A DNA stretch of 31,180 bases from a virus. A program made the position numbers and the translations under genes. Under the pieces are notes generated by a model that saw only the letters and a list, made by a program, of their open reading frames with translations, was not told the origin of the DNA and did not search any database. This document shows, in pieces, positions 21,427 through 28,914 of this stretch (positions within the stretch are counted from its first letter, which is position 1; every line of letters begins with the position of its first letter). The stretch covers positions 1-31,180 of IMG/VR virus record IMGVR_UViG_3300042992_000679; one strand, 5' to 3'.

Positions 21427-21561
21427 TTACTTCTTGGCGGGCTTCTGTTTAGCTTCTTGAGCGGCGATCTTACCGCTGTAGGCTTTGCCTGCGGTGTGGA
21501 TCAGGCCAGTCTTAGTGAAAGTAATAGTGCCGCCGGTGCTTGAAGCGATAGTCTTTTGCAT
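21427..21561 (-). CDS. Tiny basic protein (44 aa)
   Basis: ATG at 21561 to TAA at 21427. It starts Met-Gln-Lys-Thr-Ile-Ala-Ser, has a Thr/Gly-rich middle (Thr-Gly-Gly-Thr-Ile-Thr-Phe-Thr-Lys) and ends Lys-Pro-Ala-Lys-Lys. AAGGA lies upstream, headed by the promoter at 21588-21616. Composition suggests nucleic-acid or protein binding; no family recognised. Confidence 0.68.
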   Translation of the reverse strand: MQKTIASSTGGTITFTKTGLIHTAGKAYSGKIAAQEAKQKPAKK

Positions 21562-23921: not shown

Positions 23922-24126
23922 CGTAGCTCTCCTCACCAAGTTCAGTAATCTCTTCTTCCACCACACTGATATCAACAATGCGGAACCGTTGTGTCATATC
24001 GCTAACACCTAGGAACGCATCAGTGAAACTTTGATTCTCTGCTAGGAACCCTAGCACACTCTCACGATCGGTGCCTTCCGGCACTTCGATAGTCTGTCGT
24101 AGGATGGTTGTTACTTCTGCTTTCAT
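23914..24126 (-). CDS. Small acidic hypothetical protein
   Basis: A 70-residue protein from the ATG at 24126 (Met-Lys-Ala-Glu-Val-Thr-Thr), which overlaps the upstream TAA by one base (TAATG) with GAGGAG upstream. N-terminal strand pattern and acidic C-terminus; I see no family. Second gene of a three-gene unit. Confidence 0.75.
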   Translation of the reverse strand: MKAEVTTILRQTIEVPEGTDRESVLGFLAENQSFTDAFLGVSDMTQRFRIVDISVVEEEITELGEESYDA

Positions 24127-24395
24127 TAGATGATCTCCTCTTCCCACTCGTAAAAAGAAACAGCAGGGTCAAGTTGCTTCAACTGCTTGGCCGCTGTGAC
24201 CAACTCCTTGTAGCGACGATTGACTTCTGCACGGGGCAGTTCGCCATCGCAGGTAAGGTTCTCTGGGCTAAGAGCTGAGTCAATCATGTCTGCGACACGC
24301 TGACGACCCTTGGCACTCTGGATCTCGTATTGCTCGCCTTTGAAGAAACTGTTCCAGTGGTTCTTCTGCTCAATGAACTTCTGTAGTGCTTTCAT
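24126..24395 (-). CDS. Small helical protein
   Basis: An 89-residue charged helical protein beginning Met-Lys-Ala-Leu-Gln-Lys-Phe-Ile. First gene of the unit that ends with the MPNWC-family protein, so the three products may act together. AAGGAG precedes the ATG. Confidence 0.78.
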   Translation of the reverse strand: MKALQKFIEQKNHWNSFFKGEQYEIQSAKGRQRVADMIDSALSPENLTCDGELPRAEVNRRYKELVTAAKQLKQLDPAVSFYEWEEEII

Positions 24396-24421
24396 CTTTG
24401 CTCCTTAGTGTGTAAGTGTGT

Positions 24422-24450
24422 ATTATAGCAAGAAAACAGGGGATTGTCAA
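24422..24450 (-). promoter_or_regulatory. Sigma70 promoter
   Basis: TTGACA, 17-bp spacer, TATAAT. It directly follows the structured RNA upstream on the same strand. Confidence 0.9.
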
Positions 24451-24454
24451 CTAC

Positions 24455-24632
24455 CCGCTAGTCCGTCTCTAGCGTTCGGTGTGCCAAACATTACGCCCTA
24501 GTTCCCCGTCAGCAACTCGTGTAAACTTTCGTTTACAACTGCCTTCATGCCCCACAGCAACCTGTCCCCGTCGGAACCTTTCGCTTGCTGTGGGCCCTAA
24601 CGGACTAGGTAACCCTGTTTATTTCTTGCTAT
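24455..24632 (-). ncRNA. Candidate structured RNA, four-helix cloverleaf-like
   Basis: A promoter at 24639-24667 drives about 180 nt with no open frame and no ribosome site. The RNA can fold as a closed junction: P1, 9 bp, 24600-24608 with 24458-24466; P2, 10 bp, 24585-24594 with 24551-24560, capped by a GTTCC/GGGAC hairpin; P3, 7 bp with GAAA tetraloop, 24531-24537 with 24520-24526; P4, a stem spanning 24469-24501 with a six-pair GTTTGG/CCGAAC tip. All pairs are read directly. No T-tract ends it; the next -35 follows at once. It is not a tRNA, tmRNA, 6S or RNase P that I can recognise. Function unknown. Confidence 0.7.
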
Positions 24633-24638
24633 GTATCT

Positions 24639-24667
24639 ATTATAATAGGTTTTACCACTCTTGTCAA
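24639..24667 (-). promoter_or_regulatory. Sigma70 promoter for the structured RNA
   Basis: TTGACA, 17-bp spacer with GGTAAAACC, TATAAT. The TGA of the gene at 24664 lies inside the -35. What follows has no AGGAG, unlike the leaders of sister promoters. Confidence 0.9.
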
Positions 24668-24894
24668 CCAAGTGCTTTGTATAACCCTATAAGCGTTATG
24701 GTTACTCCTGTAACGTTAACAATGGTCTGTTGTCGATTTGCCACACGCAACGACCACACTAAGAACAATGCTCCTCCCATGCATCCGGCAATTAATTGCA
24801 GGGTATGCAGTTCTTTGAAGAAGCTCATAGTCGTGTACATGACCATGAAGCAGGCAGTCCCTGCCCACTGTAGTACTTCATTAATATTACGCAT
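24664..24894 (-). CDS. Small three-helix membrane protein
   Basis: A 76-residue protein from the ATG at 24894 (Met-Arg-Asn-Ile-Asn-Glu-Val), overlapping the previous stop by 8 bp with GGGAAGG upstream. Three hydrophobic segments lie at about 6-24, 30-49 and 56-73, with Trp-Ala-Gly-Thr and Asn-Val-Thr-Gly motifs. The pattern resembles half-transporter (SemiSWEET/PQ-loop-like) proteins in size and helix number, a weak analogy only. Third gene of the unit from 25466-25494. Confidence 0.68.
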   Translation of the reverse strand: MRNINEVLQWAGTACFMVMYTTMSFFKELHTLQLIAGCMGGALFLVWSLRVANRQQTIVNVTGVTITLIGLYKALG

Positions 24895-27049: not shown

Positions 27050-27196
27050 TTAAAACACTGCGTCGTCTAGTTCCATTGCAAGTGCATTAAAAGCATTTTG
27101 TATGCGTTCGTGTTCGTCGAGACCTACGATCTCTAGCATGTCTTGCAACTGTAGCATGAGACTGTCGATTTGCTTTTTAGCTTGTGTGCTTGTCAT
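27050..27196 (-). CDS. Tiny helical protein (48 aa)
   Basis: ATG at 27196 to TAA at 27050, with AAGGAG upstream and its own promoter. It begins Met-Thr-Ser-Thr-Gln-Ala-Lys-Lys and continues as an amphipathic, acidic, Leu- and Met-rich helix (Leu-Met-Leu-Gln-Leu-Gln-Asp-Met-Leu-Glu) that could form a coiled coil. Not recognised. Confidence 0.68.
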   Translation of the reverse strand: MTSTQAKKQIDSLMLQLQDMLEIVGLDEHERIQNAFNALAMELDDAVF

Positions 27197-27611: not shown

Positions 27612-27693
27612 CCAAAGACCCAGAGTCCCGTAGTGTTATAGGGTCTTTGGTCCAAGAGAAAACCCTAAAGCCACAAGGGTCTTAGGGTTTCTC
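27612..27693 (-). terminator. Tandem terminator hairpins
   Basis: Hairpin one, 27656-27693: GAGAA, ACCCTAA and a tip, against TTTAGGGT and TTTCTC. Hairpin two, 27612-27650: CCAAAGACCC against GGGTCTTTGG, 10 bp. Hairpin two abuts the next -35. They would end the tRNA transcript. Confidence 0.7.
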
Positions 27694-27910
27694 AGTCGTC
27701 AGCTGGGCAGGTCTCCCACTAACGCCCCCTCCAGTTGTCCCTGCAATCTCTCGATCGCGAGCCCTAACACGCTTACTGAAACGGTCCTGGATTCTCAACA
27801 GTTACGGCGATCTATGACAACTACCTCACCAGATCTGCACGGTGCTCCCAGCCAGTAAGAGCCTGCACCAGTTGATTCGGATTTACCTGCTGTTCTAGGG
27901 TTTATCTCTA
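27694..27910 (-). other. Non-coding stretch after the tRNA, possible RNA
   Basis: About 217 nt between the tRNA and the terminators contain no gene on either strand. Read on the minus strand it can form several short helices: GGTG...CACC around GCTC/GAGC, AGTTGTC with GACAACT about 90 nt later, and CTCG-CGAT-CGAG. It would be co-transcribed with the tRNA and could be a processed small RNA. No known RNA family is recognised. Confidence 0.45.
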
Positions 27911-28788: not shown

Positions 28789-28914
28789 TTACTTGCGAGT
28801 GTTACGTGCGATCTCTTCCATCCAACGATCACGATCACGCTGCTTGTACACATGGCTCTTATAAAAGAACACTGCGAAGAAGCCTATGAAGAAGCTCTTA
28901 AGTATCTGTCCCAT
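28789..28914 (-). CDS. Tiny membrane protein with basic tail (41 aa)
   Basis: ATG at 28914 to TAA at 28789, preceded by AAGGATAAC. A Phe-rich hydrophobic helix (residues 4-18) is followed by a strongly charged Arg/Asp/Lys tail, a topology for a one-span inner-membrane protein. It is the first gene of the leftward early region, with an exact promoter at 28953-28981. Confidence 0.65.
   Translation of the reverse strand: MGQILKSFFIGFFAVFFYKSHVYKQRDRDRWMEEIARNTRK

Follow-up and report, generated by a model that had tools for sequence, protein, structure and literature searches.

A Structured RNA Behind a Perfect Promoter

The window, by which we mean the whole stretch of 31,180 nucleotides analyzed here (positions 1 to 31,180 of virus record IMGVR_UViG_3300042992_000679), carries on its minus strand a sigma-70 promoter, TTGACA-N17-TATAAT, that agrees with the consensus at 12 of 12 positions (24639–24667) and from which transcription probably starts at about position 24632. 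Because this promoter reads along the minus strand, the RNA that it drives is on the minus strand. The ORF list holds no open frame of note between it and a second minus-strand promoter with 12 of 12 matches (24422–24450), which belongs to the next gene (24126–24395, minus strand). The 89-residue product of that gene matches nothing in Pfam, PHROG, or GenBank phages; in viral contigs, at least 586 relatives were counted among the candidate stretches that were looked at. From a covariance model and an extended fold, a structured noncoding RNA gene is predicted to occupy 24425–24632 (minus strand), the 3′ arm of its terminal helix overlapping the spacer and −10 element of the next gene's promoter. 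The tRNA nearest to this RNA lies more than 3 kb away.

By our own reading of the ORF list, the minus strand of the window between 20000 and 29000 contains 14 promoters with 12 of 12 matches, most of them placed before one small gene. An earlier note on this DNA had singled out the promoter of the RNA as the only early one without a following gene. Three other early promoters seem gene-less at first sight; they precede short frames at 27050–27196 (48 aa), at 21427–21561 (44 aa) and from an ATG at 28914, the first two taken from the ORF lists and the third read off the sequence, and the observation therefore stands on a reading of those lists. A further minus-strand spacer, at 27640–27910 after a tRNA-Met, is also without a convincing gene; similar stretches occur in L044 (80%) and L029 (73%), and its fold has a z-score of −0.7.

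Folding of the minus strand from 24632 to 24455 gave −62.1 kcal/mol (z = −4.2), a value that none of 200 shuffles reached, and extension to 24422 gave −83.6 kcal/mol (z = −6.05), again reached by 0 of 200. The fold improves with the extension because the 5′ end, ATAGCAAGAAATAAACAGGG (24632–24613), pairs with CCCCTGTTTTCTTGCTAT (24442–24425). Three other stretches of the window, folded as controls, gave z-scores of −1.6, −0.6, and −0.7. For the plus strand of the locus the z-score was −2.1, weaker than the −4.2 of the minus strand, and 7 of 200 shuffles folded equally well; an RNA on that strand was rejected. The promoter-driven structured noncoding RNA that had been proposed is thus borne out by its 12-of-12 promoter and its minus-strand fold. 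Of the extent first assigned to it, 24455–24632, the folded RNA stood, but the 3′ boundary had been drawn about 30 nt short, since the terminal helix gains its 3′ arm only with the extension to 24422.

A Family of Related RNAs in Viral Contigs

The gene for the 89-residue protein led to relatives with the RNA at the same place. A close type comprises the window and the loci L009, L010, L037, and L044, and a second type has a terminal helix of quite different sequence, about 26 bp long in L017 and L018. Stretches of viral contigs with the 19-base pattern GGTTACCNANNCCRYTAGG, taken from the shared 5′ part of the RNA, number at least 119, and patterns from the 3′ part (GGCGG or GACGG...TAGGCAGTAATGA) returned further, more divergent members. 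Letters within these patterns are partly conserved by construction, because members were found through them; relatives that differ at pattern letters exist (GGTCACC, GGTTACTT).

The covariance model R1, built from 30 members, matches 89 of 100 pattern loci tested (the 100 taken from 118, among the matches listed) and 54 of the 57 loci of the second pattern set, L399, L404, and L429 being unmatched. At the window it matches 24620–24434 with 85.9 bits (E = 2.5e-25), the window sequence itself being in the training set as L001. The 148 rows obtained represent two registers of about 74 members, from which L156, a chance match, and rows without a clear 3′ end were omitted to leave 69. Across the family the RNA is about 190–280 nt long.

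Copy number was assessed in 36 phage records, with one strong match in 30, a weak match in one, and none in five, and in 17 further records, with a single match in 15 and a double in two. Overall R1 finds 48 of these 53 records (one weakly); the records were hand-chosen, most of them for a locus in which the RNA had already been seen, and the counts are therefore not prevalence figures. Of the five unmatched records, four had been obtained through protein matches only and one because the pattern matched it by chance. Two copies lie in tandem in the locus L421 (93–283 and 319–514, minus strand) and far apart in record G038 (524,565 bases).

Two Nested Three-Way Junctions

The architecture is one of two nested junctions: helix P0 joins both ends of the RNA and meets P1 and P4 in an outer three-way junction, and P1b, P2, and P3 meet in an inner one. 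Sequence and fold place the two arms of P0, a terminal helix of leader-trailer type, at 24613–24632 (5′) and 24425–24442 (3′), these and all following positions being on the minus strand of the window. Across 78 members the eight pairs that the model has in P0 are 91.7% paired, six of the eight with double changes, and one of 55 outer P0 cells is broken among the five close sequences (in L044). P1 pairs CCUAG (24605–24609) with CUAGG (24497–24501) and is 99.5% paired over the 78 members, in which its fifth pair is CG 37 times, AU 19, GC 19, UA 2, and UG 1. P1b, CCGU (24600–24603) with ACGG (24506–24509), is 98.7% paired over the same members, with double changes at two of four pairs. The 3′ strands of both helices are placed by covariation in the 78 members and by the five close sequences.

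P2 (24551–24594) combines a 10-bp stem with an inner hairpin, GUUCC-GACG-GGGAC. Its three helices are 82.5–89.9% paired over the 78 members, and one of its pairs is CG in 24, GC in 20, UA in 16, UG in 4, AU in 3, GU in 2, and another combination in 1. P3 (24520–24537) is a hairpin of 7 bp with a GAAA loop that is 86.7% paired in the 78-member family, where five of five pairs covary. P4 includes the hairpin P4b, CGCUAG-AGACGGA-CUAGCG (24456–24474), with four compensatory pairs and 2 of 30 cells broken (L009 and L010) among the five close sequences, and P4a, a small type-specific hairpin with 3 of 30 cells broken in the same comparison.

The joining bases UUA, UAGG, AUGAA, and GUAAUG are nearly invariant, some of them having been part of search patterns. 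UAGG, in the inner junction (24596–24599), is kept in 78 of 78 rows, partly forced by the GGTTACCNANNCCRYTAGG pattern; AUGAA, linking P2 to P3 (24544–24548), has its A, G, A, and A columns kept in 78 of 78; and GUAAUG, in the outer junction (24489–24494), is kept in 76–78 of 78 per column, partly forced by the 3′-part patterns. In the sequences compared, GACG or GCCG frequently caps P2, and AGACG often caps P4.

This arrangement differs from the closed cloverleaf with perfect stems of 9, 10, and 7 bp that the earlier note had drawn. All three stems exist as sequence, and two have a place in the structure. The 10-bp stem, in P2, is upheld by three compensatory pairs among the five close sequences. 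The 7-bp GAAA stem is P3, which covaries across the family and is unbroken and unvarying among the five. The 9-bp closing stem would join the P1 5′ strand to the 3′ hairpin P4b, and it was rejected, which leaves the cloverleaf that it closes unsupported: 5 of its 45 cells are broken, at least one in each of four relatives, without compensation, and the compensatory pairs fall instead in P2 and P4b.

Compensatory Change Across the Family

Covariation was scored in three alignments. A1 holds 30 members, including the window sequence, aligned with MAFFT without structure; they were taken from 40 non-redundant members of at most 205 nt, so that the other 10 of these and 12 longer members are omitted. 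The structure tested was drawn from L143, itself a row of A1, which favors it somewhat over slid controls. In A1 the paired cells amount to 88.4%, and double changes occur at 35 of 52 pairs, with a covariation score of 0.467 against 0.179 for shuffled and at most 0.116 for slid controls. A2, with 68 distinct rows fitted to R1, scores 0.438 against 0.134 shuffled and at most 0.078 slid. A3, with 78 rows fitted to R1 from 77 sources chosen to avoid near-copies, has 90.4% of cells paired, double changes at 42 of 52 pairs, and a score of 0.511 against 0.158 shuffled and at most 0.097 slid; its weakest helix, one part of P4, is 72.9% paired. The strands of P1 and P1b were partly placed by best pairing in the comparison of members, and the A1 and A3 scores are independent of that placement. 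When column pairs of A3 were ranked by APC-corrected mutual information, the top nine and 21 of the top 30 were pairs of the structure, and the ranking gave no clear extra long-range helix beyond apparent extensions of P1, P2, and P4.

Covariation in the stems, which the earlier note had proposed to look for in homologues, is therefore present in all three alignments. Judged by sequence comparison, the family-wide compensatory changes mean that the fold is under selection. A fold arisen by chance in a spacer without function, for which a single-sequence z-score of about −4 alone would leave room, is refuted by these changes and by R1 matches in other contigs that reach E = 1e-57, and we give it a negligible probability.

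Two further contacts were considered and set aside. A loop-loop contact, ACACCA with UGGUGU, was seen by eye in long members and is beyond a covariation test because both strands are nearly invariant. A complementarity of the GGUUACC segment to the 3′ end of 16S rRNA was dropped, as L344 and other members have GGUCACC and short chance matches are expected.

No Conserved Reading Frame and No Rfam Match

In none of 69 members does a sense-strand frame stay open through the core; on the opposite strand ten frames do. Frames that begin at the conserved ATGAA run for 2–45 codons in the 64 members with the ATG, most commonly 16 codons (17 of 64), and one has no stop. A small-protein gene was rejected on these grounds: the conserved reading frame that the earlier note had named as evidence against an RNA was looked for across the 69 members, and none was found.

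The view that the RNA belongs to no recognized class also held. Rfam 15 gave no match on the RNA when the whole window was scanned at gathering score, none in 24400–24700 of the window at E values up to 10, and no listed match on the RNA in 19 other loci at E values up to 5. Rfam includes models of both ROOL and GOLLD, according to one study (PMC12286853), and neither of these matched at the window or at the other loci. Neither ARAGORN nor Rfam gave a tRNA or tmRNA match at the RNA, and blastn of GenBank phages with three members as queries returned short, chance-like matches only. With Infernal's stricter filters, E values up to 5 and no positive control, R1 found nothing in T4 (AF158101) or in nine cultured relatives picked through a DnaB-like helicase (PA5oct, Paride, Atu_ph07, Phosso, XaC1, SCTP-2, Vibrio 2.275.O, pEa_SNUABM_19, and BF). 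A bacterial origin was rejected as well, in that 74 bacterial or archaeal stretches retrieved from GTDB species genomes with the exact 19-base pattern, a search that would miss divergent bacterial members, gave no convincing R1 match; the best, and the sole one up to E = 1, had 14.5 bits (E = 0.036). Searches of open-access literature listed no paper whose title and abstract opening describe the RNA or boxA-led phage tRNA operons. Since no known RNA family matches, we regard the class as new, within the limits of Rfam 15 and these literature searches. The broader setting, that of stable RNAs beside phage tRNAs with no function found so far, is already known.

A ribozyme that processes itself, or an RNA element that is mobile, would account for closely similar cores that occur at different loci with different terminal helices (L029, L035, L135, and L221). 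Either would have to be reconciled with a copy number of one or two and with the lack of an Rfam match on the RNA, and we regard both as highly improbable.

Expression Signals and Gene Setting

Members of the family are preceded by two kinds of signal. Among the 78 members, 23 have a sigma-70 promoter of 11 or 12 matches whose end lies 22–32 nt ahead of the conserved UUACC, which would place the start of transcription at the terminal helix. The second kind goes mostly with tRNA operons: the word GTTC[ATG]TTAA[AC]A, which we identify by its consensus as the boxA of ribosomal RNA operons, stands within 200 nt upstream of 36 of 78 members, 34 of these at 55–76 nt, 26 of them with a tRNA downstream. 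The rest of the same strand in these loci, 763,680 nt, contains the word 14 times. Its strict form, GTTCTTTAA[AC]A, precedes 26 of 69 members and is absent from the window; the promoter-only members, the window included, are without the boxA word. By eye, a promoter-like sequence and a small hairpin usually lie 5′ of boxA, and another hairpin lies between boxA and the RNA. In 19 of 68 members, sequence immediately preceding P0 can also form a 7-nt pairing with the 5′ arm of that helix, compared with 3 of 68 after one shuffle. Neither boxA word nor adjacent promoter was found in 19 of 78 members, of which eight stand directly behind a conserved element of about 110 nt and one after a tandem copy, and two are on contigs that start too close upstream for a judgment.

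Several side observations concern this setting. The element of about 110 nt (for example L135 6139–6253, with promoter-like sequence before it) lies directly before the RNA in at least eight members and elsewhere in others, is 83–100% identical in 30 rows, some from overlapping loci, and also occurs in L218, L147, L133, L387, L396, L230, L185, L395, L010, and others. Among 25 other boxA words on both strands of the loci, seven precede tRNAs or recurring RNA-like stretches by our own reading (L171 5988 and 6952, L180 2732, L202 6037, L227 8427, L234 4251 on the minus strand, and L243 3158), mostly behind promoter-like sequence, and the rest look unrelated. An RNA-like stretch straight after the RNA in L245 (3540–3760) contains a hairpin, CTAATGGA-GACGT-TCTGTTAG, that resembles P4b, and stretches between tRNAs in L325 (1800–1860, 1938–2130, and 2226–2430) appear structured to the eye.

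Downstream, a tRNA starts within 220 nt in 36 of 78 members (Glu in 13, Asp in 12). Together with the promoter near the RNA in 23 of 78, this would suit a cis-acting leader, a folded RNA that modifies RNA polymerase, as the put RNA of HK022 does, or that steers processing of the following tRNAs and has no function once released. Against such a leader, the window and other members have a separate promoter for the next gene: by our tally one with 11 or 12 matches directly follows the RNA in 20 of 69 members, and in the window it overlaps the RNA's 3′ arm. Records also carry only one or two copies, yet there are 14 perfect promoters in the window and several tRNA groups in related phages, and the closed terminal helix suits release. 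We consider a leader decidedly unlikely.

The identity of the following tRNA, Glu or Asp in 25 of 36 cases, bears on another alternative, a decoy, which the earlier note had already raised. Abundant viral RNA could occupy a host defense protein or RNA-binding factor, as adenovirus VA RNA acts as a decoy in animal cells, or could mimic the tRNA target of an anticodon nuclease, and the strong promoter amid early-type genes in the window would fit such a role. ARAGORN and Rfam, however, find nothing tRNA-like at the RNA, and the conserved junction bases favor a specific fold and point to no partner. The tRNA-operon setting and the rrn-type boxA of many relatives point to a stable RNA of rRNA or tRNA kind rather than specifically to a decoy, which we think unlikely.

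Carriers and Hosts

The carriers are large uncultured phages with records of up to 524 kb. A DnaB-like helicase of the window type (52–100% identity) was found in 20 records including the window, of which 18 have the RNA; G011 and G012, with a related helicase, gave no R1 match. The nearest cultured helicases, at 51%, are those of PA5oct-like Pseudomonas jumbo phages. Near the RNA, tmRNA matches were seen in three loci: in L351 (419–759, minus strand) above the gathering scores of both beta_tmRNA and tmRNA_permuted, in L349 (1–239, truncated where the stretch ends) above the tmRNA_permuted score alone, and in L324 (2919–3141, minus strand) below those of both models. These matches to betaproteobacterial or permuted-type tmRNA suggest betaproteobacterial hosts.

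Proposed Function

Taken as a whole, the evidence is best explained by a stable noncoding RNA gene of a new family whose product is processed and acts in trans, and we hold this to be the probable, though far from certain, reading. It is the resemblance of the promoter, boxA, and closing helix to the signals of ribosomal RNA biogenesis that leads us to a processed, trans-acting stable RNA. By analogy with rRNA operons, host Nus factors would protect transcription of the boxA-bearing members, and an RNase would cut the terminal helix, RNase III being the obvious candidate. The mature RNA would be about 200 nt long and abundant, and in the window it would be made early in infection. It would then act in trans, its likeliest form being an RNA-protein particle that works on host translation or the tRNA machinery, a target guessed from genomic context. 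The translation machinery is chosen because of the tRNA neighbors and the parallel with ROOL and GOLLD, and we propose it as the target with low confidence.

A bolder version, which we put forward tentatively and with considerable doubt, is that giant phages use the host's rRNA-making route (promoter, leader hairpin, boxA, and closing leader-trailer helix) to make large amounts of a 200-nt RNA, which would assemble with host proteins and alter ribosomes or tRNA use during infection. The RNA would in that case be one of several of its kind, because other conserved RNA-like stretches adjoin it.

The family adds to the few known stable RNAs of phages a class with a comparative structure, a distribution, and expression signals. 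Since boxA stands ahead of many members and of some further tRNA operons, giant phages are predicted to borrow the ribosomal RNA transcription machinery of their hosts, and a covariance model such as R1 would allow the RNA to be searched for in phages that can be grown.

Comparison with Known Systems

RNA C and RNA D of phage T4 (rnaC and rnaD) are, by record annotation, likewise small stable phage RNAs within a tRNA cluster; they differ in being 139 and 119 nt long, and rnaC appears tRNA-like by eye. In the packaging RNA of phi29, as in the present RNA, the ends are paired and there is a three-way junction. The two differ in that the RNA described here has no Rfam match, comes from different phages, and often has members in tRNA operons.

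The precursor of 16S rRNA in E. coli offers a closer parallel in its flanks. It is described as having a boxA, leader helices, and a leader-trailer helix that is cut by RNase III and is essential for active subunits (PMC10250234). The two have in common a leader that carries boxA and helices, and a long flanking helix that varies in sequence and keeps its pairing (PMC10250234), whereas the phage RNA so enclosed is not ribosomal RNA, and the promoter-only members are without the boxA word.

The nearest likeness in setting is to ROOL and GOLLD, described in one study as structured phage and prophage RNAs, often near tRNA islands, whose function is unknown (PMC12286853). The same study reports that ROOL reaches the abundance of 16S rRNA in one strain and that GOLLD is ribosome-bound in pull-downs. 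The tRNAs downstream of 36 of 78 members, though not in the window, recall that setting. The RNAs themselves differ in structure and in size, one ROOL being 659 nt and GOLLD often more than 800 nt (PMC12286853) against about 190–280 nt here. The present RNA thus reads as one that is like ROOL and GOLLD in setting but unrelated to them.
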